Positions 4,297-44,390 of a stretch of DNA of 64,000 bases are shown here, piece after piece. A model generated the notes under the pieces. That model saw nothing but the letters and a program-made list of their open reading frames with translations. It did not search any database and had not been told where the DNA came from. A program made the position numbers and the translations under genes. Position 1 is the first letter of the stretch. Every line of letters begins with the position of its first letter. This stretch comes from Coprinopsis marcescibilis (taxonomy: Eukaryota > Basidiomycota > Agaricomycetes > Agaricales > Psathyrellaceae). The DNA is taken from contig ML210213.1 of the NCBI GenBank assembly GCA_004369085.1, forward strand, positions 72,539 to 136,538, given 5' to 3'.

Positions 4297-5788
4297 ATGA
4301 CGACGTTCACCACAATGGCTACTCAATACAACGGTATGATACCTGCACTGGTTGTCTCGTGCCCAAATTTACCCCAAGACTTAACCAGATTTCTCGTAGA
4401 AAAGAAACAGGGGTCTCAGGCCGAGTCCACAAAGGAGAATCATGTTCTCGTTATCCATGGCGGGGCTGGTGTAGTGCTGAAAGAAGGCTCGACACCAGAG
4501 CAACAACTGGAGTATAAACGCGCTTTGGGGGCTGCTCTACGAGCGGTATAGTGGAAAGAACTCGGTTTCTGCACCGAATACTGAAGGAACACCAGGGGTA
4601 TGCCATTCTAAAGAAAGGTGGCGAAGCTATGGACGCTGCTGTTGCTGCAGTGAGGGTCATGGAAAGTGAGTGTTTCAGGGTCGTATCATCCTGGCCACAT
4701 GTACTTATAGGAATTCTCAGATGATCCTTTGTTTAATGCGGGCAAGGGTGCAGTATTCAACTCTGCCGGAAAGGTAGAGCCTGTTTCTCACTGATATGAC
4801 ATCCAGCAATGCTGATATTGGCTTATCCAGAACGAACTAGAAGCTTCAATTATGCTGTCCAAACCACCGAGCTCACACCCTACGATCCCTGCAACCAGAC
4901 GAGGGGCAGCACTGACACTGTTAACACGGGCGAAGAACCCTGCACAACTCGCCCGGGCAATCTACCTTAACCCCAGCTCGGTTCCACACGTATTCCTCTC
5001 GGGGGCACCAGCTGAGGTGATAGGCGAGAACCTCGGCGAAACGCTGGTCGATTCATCCTACTTTTTCACTGGACGGCGGTGGCGAGAGCATCGACGTGCA
5101 CTTGGGCTTCCAGAGGAGCCTTTCCCGCCCCATCTTGACGGGGGCGAGAAGGAGGACGAGAACGACTTGTTACCGAAAGGCACCGTCGGGGCAGTCGCTT
5201 TGGACATCCGGGGCTGCATTGCTGCTGTTACTTCCACCGGCGGGCGCACCAACAAGATTCCTGGCCGTATCGGCGACACTCCTTTGATGGGCGCAGGATT
5301 CTGGGCAGAGGAGTGGACACATTCTACCACTGGCTGGGTCTCAAACCGACTTGCCACCCTGGGTCTCGCCTCGACCACGGGAAAGCGGGCAGTGGGTGTA
5401 TCTGGGACTGGGGATGGAGATGTAGTTATTGTCCATTGTTCGGTTTTGGCAGCGAAACTGATTTCTGGTTCTGGTGTTAGTTCTTCATTCGACAAGCTAC
5501 AGCGTCGACGATCGCCAGCCGAATGAAGCTTGCCAACGAGACTGTGGAGCAAGCTTCAAAGTGGGCAACGGAAGATTTGAGGGAAGTAGGGGGATTAGGG
5601 GGGGTTATCGCTCTAGATAATGAGGGGAATGGTGCGGTTTACTCTTCTTCTCGACATGTCGCGTCCTGATCAAAAATTGCGCAGTTGCTATGACCCTCAA
5701 CACGAATGGCATGTTTCGTGGAGTCGTCAGAAGCGACGGTGTCCCTCGAGTTGCGATCTTTGAAGATGACAACCTAGAGGAGATCTAG
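4297..5788 (+). CDS. Isoaspartyl peptidase / L-asparaginase, Ntn-hydrolase (plant type)
   Basis: Six exons: 4297-4545, 4596-4665, 4721-4773, 4831-5421, 5481-5631 and 5685-5788. The product is a threonine N-terminal nucleophile hydrolase that cleaves itself into alpha and beta chains, then hydrolyses asparagine or beta-aspartyl peptides. The family signatures appear in order: VIHGGAG near the N-terminus, ENDPLFNAGKGAVFNSAGK, the autocleavage/catalytic segment PKGTVGAVALD (Thr after Gly), GGRTNKIPGRIGDTP for substrate binding, and GTGDGD. The C-terminus has GLGGVIALDNEGNVAMT and NGMFRGV. Splicing at 5422-5480 and 5632-5684 is needed to restore GDFFIRQATAS and GNVAMT. The ATG at 4297 gives a roughly 50-residue N-terminal extension; 4315 is an alternative start. 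No inactivating change was seen. Confidence 0.93.
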
Positions 5789-6902
5789 ATGCGGAGAGCG
5801 CGTTCATGTCCCACATGTAATTTTGCTTATTTCTGGAATACAACACCGTTCAGAATGCTCTCTGTTTTGTCGATTTGATTACGAGGGCAAGTGCCGATGT
5901 TCCTAAAAATTCCTGAATTTCTAGGTTCTCTGGCACTGCGTCCACAATTCTTCGCAGCTAGTAAGCATCCATGTTCTCCAGAAGTACCCCTGACTTGCTT
6001 CTATGTTTAGCAGACCAATTCCAGAGTTCTAGGCTACCCTCTTCTGGACGTCTTACATGTTTTCATCACAAACACCGGGTTAAGAACTCCCTCAAAATAA
6101 CATACACAGGTAAGCACACCCAAAACTGGAGACGTGACTAAAAGCTGATGTACCTCGGCGGTGATTTGTAGTGAGTGTCGGCTGTATTATGCAAAAAAGG
6201 CCCATCAGGATGGCATGGTGCGGGGGATTTTCATTGTGGGTTCGTAAACACTAGGTCAGGCGTACATAGTGCGAAACGCTATAGTCCTTTGACTACAGGC
6301 CAGCCTATGGGATCACATACACCCTAGGCGTCGTACCACCTTGGCACACACATCCAATTGTTCACTCGTGGCCACCGCGGTGTAGCAGTTTGGCCTTTCG
6401 GCACCTCAGAAAGGGGTGGATCGCGGCATACAAAGCTCAGCTTTGAGCCGTACTGGGCGGAACCCATTTGCTGGCGAGCCGCATGCTAGATTAAAAATAT
6501 GATAGGCAGCATTGCGGGAACCTCATCCTTCTGCAGGACATGCCGGTTGGTTTTTCTATTCATGGGATGATAACTGACGTATATGTTAATGTATGTTTCC
6601 TTTTTCAGGTAGAGGGTTACAACACACCACGCGTGCAAAATTCAGGTTTATTACCTTATGATCTTGTTGTCGTCGTTTTGAGTGAAGAGGATTGGCCATC
6701 AGGAATACGGGTTCGCCGGTATGCCCTGCACTGGCTCACGGTGCACCCACTGTTCTGCACATGATCAGGTATGGTATACCTCTTTCTGCTCTCTCAAGAG
6801 GTATAAAAGCTGAAGGAGTGCTCTCAGAACGGACAGCTAAGCATAACACGGCACACTTTCAAGTACTACGCTCTTAACATCTAACCCTGCCAATTACTCG
6901 CC
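5789..6902. promoter_or_regulatory. Intergenic region upstream of the borosin gene, with TATA box
   Basis: No supported gene lies in this 1.1-kb spacer. A good TATA box (TATAAAA, about 6802-6808, inside GAGGTATAAAAGC) lies about 95 bp before the ATG at 6903 and is the likely core promoter of the borosin gene. The rest carries the terminator side of the asparaginase gene. Nothing else stood out. Confidence 0.55.
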
Positions 6903-8264
6903 ATGGACGCAACTGCCAACCCCAAAGCAGGCCAGCTCACGATTGTGGGCTCTGGAATTGCTTCGATCAACCATATGACCTTGCAGGCTGTGGCTTGCAT
7001 CGAAACAGCGGATGTGGTGTGTTATGTCGTGGCTGACGGTGCCACCGAGGCGTTCATCCGCAAGAAGAATGAAAACTGCATTGATCTATACCCGCTTTAT
7101 AGCGAAACAAAGGAGCGTACGGACACGTACATCCAGATGGCCGAGGTCGGGGCATGATTCTCCTGCTGCATTTTATGCGAAAACTGACGAGTTCTGTGTT
7201 CTTAGTTCATGTTAAACCATGTTCGGGCAGGAAAGAATGTTGTCGGGGTGTTCTATGGGCACCCTGGTGTGTTCGTCTGCCCCACCCATCGGGCGATCTA
7301 CATCGCTCGCAATGAGGGGTATCGCGCCGTCATGCTTCCAGGCCTGTCAGCCGAAGATTGCTTGTACGCTGATCTCGGTATTGACCCATCCACCGTTGGC
7401 TGTATCACCTACGAGGCCACGGATATGCTCGTCTATAACCGCCCTTTGAACTCAAGTAGCCACCTCGTTCTGTACCAGGTCGGCATTGTGGGCAAGGCAG
7501 ACTTCAAGTTTGCCTATGATCCCAAAGAAGTATGTGTCCCTGGCTTTCGATTTCTCGTTGTCTGCGCCCGCTTATCGCGCTCTGCTGGATGGTAGAACCA
7601 CCACTTTGGCAAGCTCATCGACCGACTGGAGTTGGAGTACGGCCCAGATCACACAGTCGTTCACTACATCGCGCCCATCTTCCCCACCGAGGAACCAGTG
7701 ATGGAGAGGTTCACCATCGGCCAACTCAAGCTCAAAGAGAACAGTGATAAGATTGCCACCATCTCCACCTTTTACCTTCCGCCCAAGGCGCCTTCGGCAA
7801 AGGTGTCCTTGAATAGGGAGTTCCTGCGTTCGCTCAACATTGCTGATAGCCGCGATCCTATGACGCCGTTCCCATGGAACCCGACCGCTGCGCCCTATGG
7901 CGAGCGAGAGAAGAAGGTTATTTTGGAGCTGGAGAGTCATGTTCCTCCCCCTGGTTATCGGCCTCTCAAGAAGAACTCTGGCTTGGCGCAGGCTCTGGAG
8001 AAACTTTCATTGGATACCAGGGCGTTGGCTGCATGGAAGACAGATCGCAAGGCTTATGCGGACTCTGTATCCGGCTTGACCGACGACGAAAGGGATGCCT
8101 TGGCTTCTGGAAAACATGCACAGCTGTCTGGTGCATTGAAAGGTGGGTGGTCGTCAAATTATGTTTCCGAAAACGTATTGACGGGGGTCTGTTTTACAAC
8201 AGAGGGAGGTGTCCCCATGAATCACGCTCAGCTTACCTTCTTTTTCATTATCTCCAACTTGTAA
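6903..8264 (+). CDS. Borosin precursor: peptide alpha-N-methyltransferase with C-terminal core peptide (OphMA-like)
   Basis: The product is a fungal RiPP enzyme that N-methylates the backbone amides of its own C-terminal core, using SAM, in an intertwined homodimer. Exons are 6903-7145, 7206-7529, 7596-8142 and 8203-8264. The N-terminal tetrapyrrole-methylase-type domain shows [18 protein letters not shown], the SAM-pocket motif [32 protein letters not shown] and the SHLVLYQVG segment. These match the order and spacing known for omphalotin OphMA. A helical clasp follows ([20 protein letters not shown]). The tail ends in [11 protein letters not shown], a hydrophobic stretch that fits a borosin core. 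The last intron (8143-8202) is 60 nt and in frame, so an unspliced form with 20 more linker residues is possible. No peptidase (OphP-like) gene is adjacent. Family assignment is firm; the exact core and product are inferred. Confidence 0.93.
8143..8202 (+). other. In-frame 60-nt intron in the borosin linker
   Basis: GTGGGT donor and ACAACAG acceptor, with TTGAC as a plausible branch site. Removal gives ALK-E-GGVPM; retention leaves the frame open and lengthens the segment between clasp and core. It decides the leader-core distance, so both isoforms should be considered. Confidence 0.6.
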
Positions 8265-8346: not shown

Positions 8347-8371
8347 CCCTAACCCTACTTTAGGGTTAGGG
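8347..8371. repeat. Telomere-like inverted repeat
   Basis: CCCTAACCCTA and TAGGGTTAGGG form perfect 11-bp arms around a 3-nt loop. The arms are the fungal telomere unit in opposite orientations, 82 bp after the borosin stop codon. It could act as a 3'-end hairpin or mark a healed break. Confidence 0.8.
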
Positions 8372-8594: not shown

Positions 8595-9731
8595 ATGCTA
8601 CCGCTCACTTCAACCCTCCCGCCAATCCGAAAGATTGCCTCCACTGATGATTTAGAGCTCAGGGGGGCAATCGACTATATCCGGAAAATATACAACCCGC
8701 CAGTACGTGGCAGCCGTCGTCGCCGTCGTCGCAGCGCTGCCAACGGCTGTTCAGGGACCCATATCCCCAACGACGAGCAAGGCGACCTCGAAGCACTACG
8801 AAGAGACGCTTTCGAACGGACCTACTCAACCACATGGCTCACCCACCTAGTCTCGCACTTCAGCATCTTTGGAGACGATGAAGACCAAAATCCCCATTCA
8901 CTGCTCAACGACGCAGCCGGGCTGCTCGCCATAGTCGCAGGCACGGCTTCAGCAGGGATAATCACTCGGTTGTTCACCGTACCCTCTGCATATGGTCCTG
9001 TTTCTGTCCAACTACGCGACGTGCCTCTCGACAACCAGGATTACGGGAGCGTCGGAGCGCAGACGTGGGGAGGAGCGTGCATCATGGCCGAGATGATAGC
9101 TGAGGATCCTGGGCGGTTTGACCTGATTTTGTCCTCATCAGGTTCACCAGGACCATACAGGGTCCTCGAGCTCGGTGCAGGGACTGGACTTGTGTCCCTC
9201 GCCATCGCCCAGCTATACAGGAAGATGATTGGGGAGGTCAGCAGAAGAGGGGACCCAGTCATTGACATTGTCGCAACCGATTACTACCCCTCCGTGCTCG
9301 AAAACCTACGCGTTAATGTCACAGAAAACAGGCTGGAAGACGCGAAATCCACTTCTCCAGCAGTCAGACTACGAACCTGGCCTTTGGACTGGTCAAAATT
9401 CCCTTCCACCACAGCCCTTCCGCCTCTGGACAAGCCGTTCGACGTTATTTTTGGTGCAGACATCGTATACGAGGAACAACACGCAATCTGGATTATGGAT
9501 TGCCTGAAAAAGCTCCTCAAAAGAGGTAGCTGGTTCCACCTTATTATTCCACTCCGCCATACCCACACGTTCGAATCATGCACTATCGAAGTCGTATTCG
9601 CGAGACCACTCGCAGCCTGCGGAGAACCTTCGTTAATTTGGCACTCCAAAGATATCATTACATGCGACGCGGACAGCGGTAGGGATGGCGACGAAGTCGA
9701 CTATGCATGTTATAAAATTGGTTGGAGCTAA
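8595..9731 (+). CDS. METTL21-like protein-lysine methyltransferase (Methyltransf_16)
   Basis: Single-exon gene of about 378 residues. The seven-strand SAM-binding fold is clear: motif I RVLELGAGTGLVSLA, post-I DIVATDYYP, and the family-specific DxxY motif in VIFGADIVYEEQH. Fungal members typically start with an LPPIR segment and a YIRKIYNPP segment; both are present just after the ATG at 8595, so I prefer that start over the in-frame ATG at 8535. An Arg-rich run (RGSRRRRRR) comes from CGT/CGC triplets and looks like a local expansion. These enzymes methylate lysines on translation factors or chaperones; the substrate here is unknown. It lies 0.33 kb after the borosin gene on the same strand, but a functional link is speculative. 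Confidence 0.88.
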   Translation: MLPLTSTLPPIRKIASTDDLELRGAIDYIRKIYNPPVRGSRRRRRRSAANGCSGTHIPNDEQGDLEALRRDAFERTYSTTWLTHLVSHFSIFGDDEDQNPHSLLNDAAGLLAIVAGTASAGIITRLFTVPSAYGPVSVQLRDVPLDNQDYGSVGAQTWGGACIMAEMIAEDPGRFDLILSSSGSPGPYRVLELGAGTGLVSLAIAQLYRKMIGEVSRRGDPVIDIVATDYYPSVLENLRVNVTENRLEDAKSTSPAVRLRTWPLDWSKFPSTTALPPLDKPFDVIFGADIVYEEQHAIWIMDCLKKLLKRGSWFHLIIPLRHTHTFESCTIEVVFARPLAACGEPSLIWHSKDIITCDADSGRDGDEVDYACYKIGWS

Positions 9732-9760: not shown

Positions 9761-9787
9761 AAGCAGCAATAGATAGTGCACTGCTGC

Positions 9788-9862
9788 AACACATAGAGCA
9801 GCAACACATAGAGCAGCAACACATAGAGCAGCAACACATAGAGCAGCAACACATAGAGCAGC
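9788..9862. repeat. 15-bp minisatellite, five copies
   Basis: Five perfect head-to-tail copies of AACACATAGAGCAGC, with degenerate precursors (CATAGAGCAATGC, CATAAAGCAGC) just upstream. The array begins 57 bp after the methyltransferase stop codon, so it probably sits in its 3' UTR. Confidence 0.95.
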
Positions 9863-10156
9863 AATACTATATTCTGTGAGAATAACGAGAACAAAAATTC
9901 CGGGGAACAGGAGTGCTGGCGACACTGGACGTCGCAGCTCAGTAAATGGTCTGTTAATGAGCTCAATAACACACAATACTTCGTACCATGAAGGTCCCAC
10001 ACAACCATCACACTCTGCTGAATGAAACTGCGAGCAGTGGTTCGCCTAGTCTGGGGTTTCTGCTTCAGGTTCGACTGGTGGTGGGCGAGTCGGATGGCGT
10101 TTAAATGAACTGAATTCGCTGCCAGCGGGCTGTGATGCGCTCCCCGCTCCCACTAC

Positions 10157-19274: not shown

Positions 19275-21874
19275 ATGATGCGAAAGCGCTTGTCTGTGAT
19301 CATGAGGGGCTCCTCATCCTCGAGCGCCCAGGAGGACTTCACATCTTACGACAACGAGTCCAAGACGACATTCACGACCGCGGTCGGTGGTGACGATAAA
19401 GACGACTCCCTTCCAAGCCCGTCCACCAAGATCAAACGCGTCGACAACTATTACAGTCGATGGAGCAAGACCTGGAAGTACCGAGTCAGTCTCACCTCCA
19501 GTCACATTTGCAGTTAAATGGAACTAATAAGAATGTATGTCTAGAACACAAGCTCGAAGGTAGTCGTTGAGGCACCTCCCGTCCTCGGGAGCGGGAGCGG
19601 TAACGACCAGTGGAGGGACTGCAGCTTCGTGTACGTCCCTTTTGCTGAATACACTGTCTTGAAGTCGTGGTTGACAGTCATACGATGCCAACAGCGTCGT
19701 TCGAACCATCCCAAGGAATGATTTACAGGAGACAACCTATCGCATCGTAATCAAAAGCGATTACCTGCTTAGGGCTTGTCGCGAAATCATCGTCTCCTGG
19801 CCTGGTATCTCCTGGAATGCCGACCCCTTGGAGGTTTGTAAACTTCCATGCCACTACTATGCATAGTGGCTACTGAGCTCACATATACATCCATAGCTCG
19901 ATCCTCAAATCTTCATCACATTCCACCAGAAGTTCCTCGACTACGAAGCCTCCCTCGTTGAGAAGAAGGCACGAACACAGCTCGAAACCAATGTCCTCAC
20001 TACAATCAAGTTGCTCAACAACACCATTGCGTTTGACTACCGAACCACGCTCGCCAATATCCAGCGACTTACCAAGCATGGCGAAATGACCTTCGACTTG
20101 CTCTACACTCTCCTGGTACCCGGGGAGTTGTTTGTTGCACGATGCGCTGTGACGGGCCTTCCGCGCCTGTTGAAACTCACTTCGGCCCAGCGCACGTATG
20201 TGGATACCAAAGCCGTGTATCAGCTCGTGCTTGAGAGTGTAGACCTTATTGATCGATCTATGAGCAACACCGTTACTATCGGTAACGTGCAGACTGTGAT
20301 CTATTTGCCCAAGTTCAAGGGCACAACCAAGATCACCGAGTTGGATGTCTACCCGCTGAAGTACCATCATGATGAGGCGGGCTTGAGGGCGAACATTCTT
20401 GCGAGGGGCAAGAAGTGGTTGAGCTTGATGGGTGTGCACCACCAGCAATATGAAGGCATTGCCGCTTTCAAGTGCGCAGGAAAGTTGGTCAAGCATAATG
20501 TATGTGCTTTCCAAGCCTTTGAGTTCAAGCTCGTGCCAACTATTCATTTAGGTTCGAAGTCGGATCATGATCGACAGAGGTTTGTCACTTTTTAAATCCA
20601 ACCTTGCTGCCAACTTAAATGACAACTATTCTATTAGCAACTTTCCGTAGGATAAATGCTGGCTACGTTTTCCCGAACCCAGTCCCACCCAAGGCCAACG
20701 TACCCGACATGACCAACCCCCGCAACCAAGTATATGACGAATTTGGCAACTACGCTAACCAGCCCCCGCCACCTATGGTTGCGACTGGAGGCGATGTCGT
20801 TCAACAAAGCTCCGTAGCTGATGCTCCTGACCGAGCCAACCTCACTGAGGAGGAGTTCCTCCTTACTCCTGCAGCCGTATACGGCTTCAGTTTAGCTGAC
20901 AAGGCCTGGCGTAAGTTGCACACACTTGAGCTCACAGCGTCTTTGCTAACTTCTTTTCTAATATGCAGTCGAGTTCAACATTGAACTTGTCAAGGATGTC
21001 GAGTGGAACTCTGAGGCGTTCTCCAACCTCGTCTTGCCCCAAGGCCGCAAAGACCTCCTCCAATCCCTTGTCGAGTCTCATCATCGCGAGCTTGGATTTG
21101 ATGACTTTATCAGGGGCAAAGGACACGGCCTGGTCGTAAATCTCTATGGCCCGCCCGGTGTCGGCAAGACATTCTCTGCAGAGGCTACTAGCGAGCACGT
21201 CCAGAGACCGTTGTACGTTATTGGTGGTGGGGATCTTGGTACCACTGCCCAAGAGCTTGATACGGCGCTGGAGCGAGTGTTTGATGTTGCCACTGCCTGG
21301 AAAGCAATTGTGCTCATCGACGAGGTACTTTACTCAGTGAATACAGTTTGGTTTAGGATGAATGCTAACCCTTGGCTTTCCAGGCTGATGTTTTCCTTGA
21401 GCAACGATCCCTGCACGAACTCGATCGCAACGCCATGGTCGCAGTGTTGTGAGTGCCTTTTGGTCCCTTCTACAACTCATTGAACTAAACGACTCACCCT
21501 TCTACAGCCTTCGCCACGTCGAGTACTATCGCGGAATCCTCTTCCTCACCACCAACCGTGTCAGTACCTTTGATGAGGCCTTCCTTTCTCGTATCCACGT
21601 CGCACTCCACTTCGACCATCTTTCCCAAGAGTCCAAGGAGCAGGTCTGGGCTGCCTTCATCAAGAAAGCTGGTGCTGCCGACAGTATTACACCGGAGCAA
21701 GTCAGGGAGTTGGCAAAGAGAGATATCAATGGACGACAGATCAAGAACGCTGTCAGGACTGCGCACTCCTTGGCTGCTGGACGGGGCTCTGAAATCTCAT
21801 TCGAGCATATTATTGAGACCTTGGATGCCATGGCTGAGTTTACGAGATTGTTTAAGATCTCGAGGACTCAGTGA
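19275..21874 (+). CDS. AAA+ ATPase, fungal DUF7025-containing type
   Basis: Multi-exon gene; ATG at 19275, TGA at 21874. After a Ser-rich leader comes the fungal N-terminal domain, with YYSRWSKTWKYR, then across an intron SFVVVRTIPRND, TYRIVIKSDYLL and PGISWNADPLE. These stereotyped phrases identify the DUF7025/AAA family. The segment TFRRINAGYVFPNP precedes the ATPase core. Core motifs are Walker A GPPGVGKT, Walker B AIVLIDEADVFLEQR (reconstructed across an intron) and the sensor segment LTTNRVSTFDEAFLSRIH with the arginine finger. The lid is NGRQIKNAVRTAHSLA. The ATPase appears active. The cellular role of this expanded fungal family is not established. Confidence 0.9.
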
Positions 21875-40212: not shown

Positions 40213-43200
40213 CTAAACACCAAAGTGAATATAAGGGACCCAGTTCCAGAACGATGCCCCGCTATCTCGGATCTTCTGAACAGCGAGATGGAGAGCATAC
40301 GCAGCTTCGCTGACATCAGGAGGACACTCAGTGCCATTGCGGAACATATGCTTATAAAACACGTCCGCGACGACTGGTGCATCAACATCGCTGATGGACC
40401 TGGTCAATGGGAGGTGGTCAGAGCAATATTTGGTTAGGAACAAAGTTGAAGGACGTACCACATCGTCCCGACCACACCTCGGAATCCCGCAAACAGCATC
40501 GTCGCAGCCAATGTGAGCGCTTCATCCGGACGTTCTTCGTCGCTCTTGGCGGTCTGACAGGCGCTCAGATAAGCAAGACACCCGTTCGATGCCTGACACT
40601 TCTGAATAATTCTCTCCATCGTGAGACGCCCCCCGCTTAACACTAGAGCGCTGGCAAGTGGATTCGATGGGTGCTGAGTGCCGTGGCATCCAAAATGGGC
40701 GAGGGAGCATTCTTTTAGATTGGAGAGAACATCATCCAGATTTGTGGCTTCCTTTTCCTTTCCAATGTGCTCGATAAGATTGTCATAGGCGGGAATGTGC
40801 GCTCGAATCTTCTCGAGTTCGACCTTTGTCATTGGGAGTGCGTTGTACCCACTTCCACTCATGGGCTCAATCACAGCCACCATTTTGAAGTCAGAGGTCA
40901 GTGCGGGAGGAGGGGAGATGAGGTCCTGAGTAGTGTAGATGTAGGAGGAGCTGGCGTATTGGAACAGAGCATCTTCCGGACCATCAGTTTTGGAGTATGA
41001 GCCTGCTGCATGGATGGGGAGGAAAGAGAACACTCCTGTAGCGCACCACCAGAGCCTGGTGGGGGCTTCGGTCTAGTAGAGGCAAGATATTCAGTCCCAT
41101 GCATGAAGGGCTTTCAAGAAGAACGACGTACCTTTAAGAGACCCAGGCTGTCAACGATCGGTTTAACAACTACGGTCCATAGACTTTCAAGGAGAAATCT
41201 AAAGTCGTCGTCGATGGTTTCCGTCCCTGGGCGGCATTTGATTCTGCCTTTAAGACGAGTGTCGGAGGAGGATCTACATTTCAAGTGCTCCGTAATCTCT
41301 TCAACAATTTCGGACCGGATGAACTGCTGTTGTGCCAGCTGCTGAGATGCGGTGCTGAGTGTCTGTAGCATTGCAAGTTCCACGCCCAGAGCAACATGCT
41401 CCAGCTGACCACCTGGACGCATGATTATGGCGTCGCAACCGTATTGACTGGCGTTCAGGAACACTATGGGACCATTCCTTGCTGCAGCGCCCAGAGAATC
41501 GAAAGAAGGGGGAAGGAGAAAGTCTTGAAATCCGTCGATCTCACGGGCCTTGGCAAGAAGCTGCTCGCGTTGCTGCGAAAGCGAGTAAAGAGTCTCTGAT
41601 TTGTCGGAATGTGGGTGTGAGATGGGATCCAGTGTGCTCGTATGGTTTGCGGCTTGCTCAAGCCTTTGGGAGATCTTTCGAAGGTCCCGAGCGAGTGATG
41701 GGTTGACTGAGTCGAGAAGATCCAGAGGGGACCGGAGTTGAAGCGCCTGTGACCAGAAGACAGAGCGCGAAGTGGAGAGAAAGACAACTGCTGTTTGTAA
41801 TGCATTTTGAGAGATGGCGCACTGAGCTGCATCATTGGATAAGTTCTTGGTGTGAACCAGAACATTTTGTCGCTGTGAGAGTGTGAGGTCGAGAGAGGAG
41901 AGGAGGGGAAGCAAAGTGATGAGGTAGGAATACGCATCAAACGCTGATGTACGATGATTTTGTCGACTAAACAAGGCCCAACGGTTTGCAGAAAAGAGCC
42001 GTTCCATGAGTGGTGCGGTGCTGTATTCGGCAGCTGCTTTGAGTAGATCGAGTGCGCTATCCAAGTCCGCCTCATCGTGAGAGTAATGATAGGCGCGGTG
42101 TAGGGCAATTGCAAGGTTCTGGAGAGAAATGCAACGCTCGGGATTGGGAGAAGGTGTTAATTCAAGGGCTTCCCTGTGAAGCTTGATACACTCCTCAAGA
42201 TCTTCAGAGCTGCCCTTGTGTTCAGATAGGGTGAAGAGTGCTATCGCAAGGTTGTTGAGTGAGCTGGAACGGCCGGGATGCGGAGGGGGCATCGATTCAA
42301 GTGCTTCCCTGTGCAGCACAATACACTCTTCGTGATCGTCAAAGCTGCCCCTGTGCTTGAATCGGATGGAAAGCGCAGTGGCAAGGTTGTTGAGTGCGCG
42401 GTAGCGGTTGGGATGGGGATGGGGCATCAATCTGAGCGCTTCCCTGCGATACACGATGCAGTCCTCGAGGTCCTCGATGCGGCCTGTGTGCTCGAACAGG
42501 GTGAAAAGCGCCATCGCAAGGTTGTTGAGCGACCCGGAACGCCCGGCATGGGGCGGGGTCATCAATGCAAGCGCTTGCATGTGAAGCACAATACACTCCT
42601 CGAGATCGTTAAAGCTGCCATTATGTTTAGATCGAGTGCAAAGCGCATTGGCAAGGCTGGTGAGTGCACCAGAGCGATGGTGATGGGGAGGAGGCAGCAA
42701 TCCGAGAGCTTCCCTGTGAAGCAAGAGACACTCCTCGAGATACTCAAGGTTGCCCTTACGCTCGAATTGGGTCCATAGCGCGTTCCCAAGGTTCGTGAGT
42801 GAAGCATGACGATGGGGATGCGGAGAAGGTTTTAATCTGAGTGATTCCCTTTGAAGCACGATACACTCTTCGAGATTGTCGAAGCTGCCCTTGTGCCGGA
42901 ATCGAGTGAGAAGTGCGCCGGCAAGGTCGTTAAGTGGGTCAGCACGATCAGGATGTGGATAAGGCCTCAACCCGAGCGCTTCCCTGTGATGCACGATACA
43001 CTCCTCCAGGTCTTCAAAGTTGCCATTAATATCGAATCGGTTCCGTAGTGCATTTCCAAGGCCGTTGAGTGAAGTAGAACGATCAGGATGTGGAGAAGGC
43101 CTCAAACTAAGCGCTTCCCTGTGAAGCCCAAGACATTCCTCGAGATCGCCAAGGTTGGGCTTATACTCGAACCGGGCCATTCGCACATTCGCAAGGTTGC

Positions 43201-44390
43201 TGAGTGAAACAGAACGCTGGGGATGGCGAGAAGGCCTCAATCCGAGCGCTTCCTTGTGAAGCACAATAGACTGCTCGAGGTCTTCGAGGCTGCCCCTATG
43301 GTTGAATCGGGTAAAGAGTGCTATCGCAAGGTTGTTGAGTGAATTGGGACGATTGGGATGGGGTGGTGCTCGACGATGTAAGGAATTGAACAGGAACGGG
43401 ATTGCCGCCTCGAATTCACCTCCTTCCAGCAATTCTGACCCCACTTCAAATTGTTCCCTGCCCTGCTTATCCTCTTCGACCGCTCGAGCGAGCCACCCTA
43501 CCCCCTCATTCAAAGATTCTGCCATACCCTGCTCCACATATCTCGTCCACCCAATGTGCTCCAGGGAGACTGCACGGATGTACGCCCAAGGATCATTGGC
43601 TCCACGGGCTATATCCGCATCTTGAAATGTCTTCTCAGCTTCCTCCAAGCCATCCGTTGAGCCTCCTTGTAAATATCCAATCACTAGCGCCCTCCCGAGC
43701 ATGACTTGTAGGCGGTGGCGAGATTTCGCTGGATCCCCTCCCGAATCAAGAACCTCGGAAGCGACATAGATGGCGGTGCCCAAGACAGCTTTATCAATAG
43801 ATTTCCTGACGTCGTCAATCAGCCCTACCGCGAGCTGGACGACATCCAGAGTATCAGATGTGCTTCTTTCGAGACATTTGCGAATCTAGATCCAGTCGTT
43901 AGTACGTTAATTGAGCACATCGACTGGGATACAGACCATAACTCTCCCCTGCTGAAGGTCGTCCGCCCAAAGGCTGTGTAACATCAGGCGGTCCTCATTC
44001 CACCCAAAGCATGCAAACCTTGTCAATAGCGTCTTTACAAGGGCACCTCTGACCTCCGCTCGATTGTTTGGGTCCGTTTCCTCCTCAATCGCCTCGTTCA
44101 GAAGGCAAACCGCGGTCTCAAAGGTGTCCCAGTCCATTCCACGAACCAAGTCGTCCAAGATACCTGTAACAAGCGCTATGGAGCCATCTATCTCGTCTGG
44201 CTCGCCCACTCGTTGTCAGAATGTCAAAATAATAGTGATGAGCATAGTCATACGGCCTCACCTTGGTTGCAGCTAACACGGCCCGCCTGGACCTGGTGTA
44301 CAGACCCACTTCAGTCACAGCTATTTAGTTAGAAGGTATAGTGGAACTTACGTCTATGCTCTCTGCAAGAGGCTGGTGCCCGTTCTCCAT
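40213..44390 (-). CDS. TPR-CHAT protein, putative caspase-like protease
   Basis: About 1,250-1,300 residues. Short first exons (MENGHQPLAESID, then VTEVGLYTRSRRAV) lead into an alpha-helical region and one long exon. That exon carries ten near-identical TPR units of 45 residues (HPxRxxSLNNLAxAL...DLEECIxLHREAL). A linker follows, then a C-terminal CHAT domain (caspase HetF associated with TPRs). The catalytic dyad is visible: His in CSLAHFGCHG and Cys in CLAYLSACQTA. The fold also shows ATGVFSFLPIHAAG, LSGGRLTMERI and LFAGFRGVVGTMW. The last exon joins through TG/G to SISDVDAPVVADVFYKHMF and ends YIHFGV. CHAT proteins are caspase-like proteases, often switched on when their TPR part senses a partner. 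The target is unknown. The gene is flanked by two copies of a secreted-protein gene. Confidence 0.9.
42110..43385 (-). repeat. 135-bp coding repeats of the TPR array
   Basis: About ten tandem units of 135 bp, each coding one 45-residue TPR. Words such as GCGCTTCCCTGTGAAGC recur once per unit. The high nucleotide similarity suggests recent expansion or gene conversion. Confidence 0.85.

Follow-up and report, generated by a model that had tools for sequence, protein, structure and literature searches.

The stretch of Coprinopsis marcescibilis DNA analysed here (the window, 64,000 nucleotides, numbered from its first letter) carries at 6903-8264 on the + strand a borosin-type gene of four exons, whose product has 391 residues. 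The observation of a borosin precursor gene at this position is confirmed, and the start and stop positions are those given in the initial annotation. The gene and the elements within it are as follows:

6800..6809, + strand: putative TATA-box-like GGTATAAAAG, about 93 bp 5' of the ATG, seen in the sequence
6903, + strand: ATG, start of the borosin precursor frame
6903..7145, + strand: exon 1, residues 1-81, in which the methyltransferase domain begins and which carries Tyr63, Tyr66, Arg72 and Tyr76; matches the public protein P0001
7146..7205, + strand: intron 1, 60 nt, GT-AG, in-frame stops inside
7206..7529, + strand: exon 2, residues 82-189, within the methyltransferase domain; its YGHPGVFV motif contains Tyr98
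7530..7595, + strand: intron 2, 66 nt, GT-AG, ending in an in-frame stop
7596..8142, + strand: exon 3, residues 190-371, last part of the methyltransferase domain, then the helical clasp region
8143..8202, + strand: intron 3, 60 nt, GT-AG, in frame and stop-free; removed in the public gene model (P0001)
8203..8264, + strand: exon 4, residues 372-391 plus the stop codon; the hydrophobic tail follows a short linker that contains Pro376
8229..8261, + strand: putative core, residues 381-391, up to the C-terminus with no evident follower (positions derived from the exons)
8262-8264, + strand: stop codon, end of the borosin precursor frame

The 391-residue translation agrees in every letter with the public C. 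marcescibilis protein P0001 (identical over 391/391 residues), which very probably represents the same gene. Retention of intron 3 would give a predicted form of 411 residues with the same tail and a clasp-to-tail linker longer by 20 residues; the intron keeps the frame and has no stop, and the reading of the tail is therefore independent of its splicing and remains as it was first proposed. Downstream, 82 bp past the borosin stop, lies a head-to-head telomere-type repeat, CCCTAACCCTA-CTT-TAGGGTTAGGG (8347-8371), which is the sole match in the 36.3 Mb assembly to an inverted telomere-type pattern with 0-8 bases between the arms.

A search of PDB sequences with the borosin protein matched dbOphM (402 bits, E = 1.9e-119), OphMA (380 bits, E = 8.2e-113), MroMA1 (281 bits) and SonM (157 bits), the first two far past chance, and returned 25 distinct sequences at E ≤0.001 (dbOphM, OphMA, MroMA and the SonM group), some of them with general molecule names only. 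The solved borosins align across residues 1-371, and the alignment with dbOphM, which runs to residue 371, places a clasp/borosin-binding region fused after the methyltransferase, with the hydrophobic putative core fused at the C-terminus of the same polypeptide. Tyr66, Arg72, Tyr76 and Tyr98 are invariant in an alignment of 23 rows picked by the analyst from 120 listed relatives, and Tyr63 is present in the C. marcescibilis protein without being invariant across that alignment; the OphA mutants named in PDB titles hit exactly these five positions. All five are in place in the C. marcescibilis protein. By a constant numbering offset, not by alignment, Tyr63, Arg72, Tyr76 and Tyr98 correspond to Y58, R67, Y71 and Y93 of SonM, where one study reports drops in catalytic efficiency of 14-fold for Y58F, 97-fold for R67K, 98-fold for Y71F and 1.6-fold for Y93F (PMC8429565).

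An AlphaFold model built on the 23-row alignment (mean pLDDT 84.1, pTM 0.82) is mostly confident for the methyltransferase and the helical clasp, the latter formed by helices between residues 292 and 370, and is weaker around residues 181-190 and 251-290; residues 377-391 have a pLDDT below 50, and the helix drawn at 379-390 is of that low confidence. All of the 50 Foldseek matches listed are OphA/dbOphMA, MroMA or SonM. Over the full alignments the query TM is 0.30-0.54 and the rmsd 16-20 Å (about 0.53 and 19 Å against OphA), which indicates a monomer model without the domain arrangement of the crystal dimers. Searching the genome with the borosin protein retrieved its own gene as the only match, in single copy. 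The PDB matches, the conserved active site and the fused clasp and tail bear out the domain order of OphMA that had been proposed for this gene, and it is predicted, with a probability of about 0.9, to encode a fused borosin precursor made up of an OphMA-type methyltransferase, a clasp and a hydrophobic tail. Judged from its sequence, this precursor is genuine and intact, and it is the sole one found in the genome.

The tail is short, with only 22 residues from Leu370, the conserved end of the clasp, to the C-terminus. Using a five-residue window with four of VILFMWY, a hydrophobic stretch was found in 22 of the 23 aligned rows, and the distance to it from the clasp end (about 12 residues in C. 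marcescibilis) is the second shortest among them (range 10-33, OphMA 23); Phanerochaete and Marasmius relatives have tails equally short, at 23 and 21 residues. The hydrophobic tail is preceded by Pro376, and no Gly, Ala or Pro occurs from Leu382 to the C-terminus, a lack that from the stretch onward is found in three of the 22 rows (the C. marcescibilis protein, a Dactylella protein and one Lentinula edodes protein). According to a study on OphMA, that enzyme favors hydrophobic residues and accepts Phe, though less efficiently, Val401 is a methylated residue, and the clasp-to-tail segment contains a helix at 380-388 (PMC10947093). By a hand count on P0007, Val401 of OphMA lies about 25 residues beyond the clasp-end Lys and the C. 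marcescibilis chain stops 20 beyond it, so that access of the tail to the active site of the partner cannot be taken for granted; should an extended chain take the place of the OphMA helix, the tail may still reach it. N-methylation of the C. marcescibilis tail is very likely.

The genes on either side of the borosin gene are as follows:

4816..5523, + strand: upstream neighbor frame of the Asparaginase_2 family, one exon (PF01112, 103 bits)
8595..9731, + strand: downstream neighbor, PF10294 methyltransferase (Pfam and relatives)

The Asparaginase_2 family includes isoaspartyl peptidases, which are not known to release borosin-type cores. The PF10294 methyltransferase has 697 relatives at E ≤0.001; among the 120 listed, two are named protein-lysine methyltransferase EFM2 and the named relatives are largely from mushroom-forming fungi, and the gene is probably housekeeping. 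Just 3' of it lies a perfect minisatellite (9786-9864, 15-bp unit, 5.3 copies). Beyond the PF10294 gene, the - strand carries GCN2-like frames (RWD, kinase, HGTP_anticodon2), and upstream of the borosin gene are TPR-rich frames and a tRNA uracil methyltransferase frame. Elsewhere in the window, a DUF7025 frame and the AAA and fungal AAA-lid frames that come after it (19897-21871, + strand) are likely one gene, and a CHAT-domain frame (40437-43885, - strand) adjoins a 923-aa TPR_10-repeat frame, the two looking like a single CHAT-TPR protein.

No prolyl oligopeptidase (POP), P450 or acyltransferase family was detected in the 50 of 117 frames (≥90 aa) that were scanned with Pfam in the window and the 20 kb upstream (43 of the 94 that lie in or overlap the window, seven of the 23 upstream). 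Of the other 67 frames, 61 are shorter than 150 aa, and these include two of the three borosin exon frames; the longest of the 67, with 609 aa, lies upstream. A separate search found two P450 pieces at C68:57307-58014, on the borosin contig (C68) and 21.4 kb 5' of the ATG; these represent two of at least 120 rows, with 92 of 302 candidates scored, and the count is a lower bound. Both pieces fall inside the upstream region that the frame scan covered and were missed by it, and the scan is therefore not exhaustive. S9_N rows (seven) occur only on contigs C9 and C84, leaving no POP beside the precursor, and the 14 S9 rows fall on nine contigs, none of them C68. The initial annotation's remark that no cyclizing peptidase or tailoring gene adjoins is thereby upheld for the S9 rows and the scanned frames. 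Two marks of an omphalotin-type gene cluster (MA plus P) are missing, namely a POP beside the gene and a ring-closing Gly, Ala or Pro with a follower after it. The idea of a cluster concealed in the window or in the 20 kb 5' of it was dropped on the content of the 50 scanned frames.

The genome contains two POP genes, both unlinked to the borosin gene:

G000:C9:333691-336817, strand not given: POP gene (S9_N/S9 rows)
C84:28763-31815, strand not given: POP gene (S9_N/S9 rows)

Their products are about 70% identical over the assembled exons, and as rough exon assemblies they score 783 and 814 bits against PDB 5n4f ('Prolyl oligopeptidase'), which we take to be GmPOPB, vs 469 and 494 bits against OphP. 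The C84 POP corresponds to a public 729-aa protein (P0121, 96% to the rough assembly) and shares 55% identity with POPA of Amanita bisporigera and 52% with a Galerina entry named 'Dual function macr...'. The C9 protein is absent among the 120 listed relatives of the C84 POP, and the identity between the two exceeds that of the C84 POP to its nearest listed coprinoid relatives (62-65%); a duplication within this lineage is possible. A cluster around the C84 POP was considered and dropped, as the 10 of 39 frames scanned there (≥85 aa, 24 kb) gave MLKL_N and SMC hinge frames and no typical peptide-cluster genes. The MLKL_N-type frame (L017:319-963, + strand) lies about 1.2 kb before the C84 POP, and a GMC-oxidoreductase-like frame was seen near it by eye only.

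In one study, the rings that OphP formed from test peptides were closed at N-methyl-Gly, Pro or N-methyl-Ala, whereas N-methyl-Val was not used, and the enzyme is described as acting largely without regard to the follower; GmPOPB, the macrocyclase for the α-amanitin precursor, cut OphMA-derived peptides after a Pro without cyclization and did not process a methylated Oph-5 peptide, and an unidentified protease of the host is credited with the first cut of OphMA (PMC12235650). With no Gly, Ala or Pro from Leu382 on, an omphalotin-type ring closed inside the stretch is unlikely, and the missing follower alone is little argument against a ring, given the follower independence of OphP. Of the earlier proposal that release and cyclization would need enzymes encoded elsewhere, the cyclization in particular is doubtful, in view of the missing residues and of POPs that are not OphP-like.

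By analogy with OphMA, two copies of the protein would interlock as a homodimer, and each would use SAM to methylate backbone amides of its partner's tail, within the stretch between Leu382 and the C-terminus and proceeding from the N-terminal side onward. In a less certain step, cleavage of the methylated tail behind Pro376, or by a different host protease, would yield a linear N-methylated peptide of up to 15 residues. Linear release is proposed because the tail has no residue at which OphP is known to close a ring and the POPs resemble GmPOPB and POPA, not OphP; at a guess, the simplest route would be a cut behind Pro376 that frees a linear N-methylated 15-mer. In its complete form, in which a precursor with neither follower nor cluster would yield a linear aromatic N-methylated peptide, freed after Pro376 by an unlinked POPA/POPB-type peptidase, and splicing of intron 3 would set the reach of the tail, this proposal is distinctly improbable.

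The tail may instead be methylated or not without any peptide being released, the gene being an orphan whose pathway peptidase and tailoring genes have been lost. The ordinary neighbors among the scanned frames, the S9 rows confined to other contigs, the distance of 21 kb to the nearest P450 found and the single copy of the borosin gene are in keeping with such a loss. However, the open frame and the intact catalytic residues argue for selection, and release enzymes may be unlinked, as the host protease invoked for OphMA illustrates, and the orphan state is considered unlikely.

A macrocycle built by one of the two unlinked POPs has been weighed as well. Two such genes, 70% identical, are present, and both the macrocyclization of the α-amanitin precursor by GmPOPB and the follower independence of OphP speak for this option; but the tail from Leu382 offers none of the three ring-closing residues, both POPs score far from OphP, GmPOPB left the methylated Oph-5 peptide unprocessed and OphP rejected N-methyl-Val, all of which makes a macrocycle quite improbable.

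Another possibility is that the working form retains intron 3, the longer linker letting the tail reach the partner's active site and the spliced form being inactive or less active. Intron 3 is in frame and stop-free where introns 1 and 2 contain stops, and the spliced linker is the second shortest among the 22 rows. However, the intron has GT-AG ends and is spliced out in the public model, a stop is absent from 20 random codons about 38 times in 100, and the Phanerochaete and Marasmius relatives have tails as short (23 and 21 vs 22 residues). Profile scores do not discriminate between the forms (490.7 spliced vs 488.4 retained with three near relatives, 506.7 for both with 22 relatives) and were dropped as an arbiter for lack of a clear difference. 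Retention as the working form is accordingly held to be very improbable. In the spliced form, the KEG after the clasp agrees by eye with P0003 and P0005.

That an ordinary tetrapyrrole or diphthine methylase was mistaken for a borosin is next to impossible and was rejected: Pfam names TP_methylase alone on the protein, but the solved borosins match it over residues 1-371, no NCBIfam model reaches its cut-off on it, and the other TP_methylase matches in the genome are separate genes on C280 (a fragment for which uroporphyrinogen-III methylase models are best, below their cut-offs) and C31 (a piece exceeding the diphthine synthase cut-off).

The fused precursor thus belongs to a well-known family, and the exact protein is already catalogued. 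The C. marcescibilis protein is presumably cmaMA, a name reportedly connected with Quijano et al. 2019. According to papers citing it, that study covered >50 putative pathways and >10 validated precursors (PMC8429565, PMC9233826). The UniRef name of P0001 starts 'Methyltransferase/ribosomally synthes', as for other borosin precursors; the same start is found for gymMA1 and, in nearly full form, for 'type I borosin cyclic peptide precursor pocMA', and the NCBI label of P0001 is tetrapyrrole methylase. Among the papers listed in searches of the open-licence literature, none was found on the C. marcescibilis protein. The initial annotation had described an apparently new core, and this description fails, as the identical protein is already public under a borosin-precursor-type name. 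Similarly, it had taken the unlikeness of the tail to omphalotin as a mark of novelty, and unlike tails are usual among the aligned fused relatives; the tails vary among the rows, so that a tail without an omphalotin-like core does not point to novelty. Its interpretation is supported in part, and the gene is a useful but ordinary example of its family.

In a midpoint-rooted tree of the first 300 residues of 36 of the 120 listed relatives (two rows flagged as long branches and one only 30% filled), the borosin protein falls outside the OphMA/gymMA1 clade. It groups with two Ceratobasidium proteins and the metagenome rows P0003, P0005, P0012 and P0013, on modest support (the side with seven rows has 83/92). 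The borosin-like proteins P0015 and P0016 of Ceratobasidium sp. 392 have C-termini without a hydrophobic core by eye, one of them Pro-rich; loss of the core or an incomplete gene model is possible.

Being already catalogued, the protein adds little to the borosin family as such; it offers a clean case for the fate of borosins without an adjoining peptidase or a ring-closing residue, and with one borosin gene and two unlinked POPs the question of release is easy to test. The closest solved relative is dbOphM/DbiMA1 of Dendrothele bispora (P0002, PDB 6mjf and 6mjg; 52% identity over 95% of the query), which shares the domain order, catalytic residues and clasp. OphMA of Omphalotus olearius (P0007, an engineered variant; 50% identity over 93%) is nearly as similar, and all five residues mutated in its solved structures are present in the C. 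marcescibilis protein. Unlike both, the C. marcescibilis tail has no Val/Gly/Ile dodecapeptide and no follower, and its linker is about half as long; unlike dbOphM, no POP gene was found beside it. OphMA itself belongs to a cluster that also contains OphP as well as monooxygenase and O-acyltransferase genes (PMC7878506). A more distant fused borosin is MroMA1 of Mycena rosella (PDB 7twk; 281 bits, 39-40% identity in the Foldseek rows). The pocMA protein (P0023, 44% identity over 91%) falls in a different clade of the tree, and it is likewise fused, with a hydrophobic tail that runs to the C-terminus and no evident follower.
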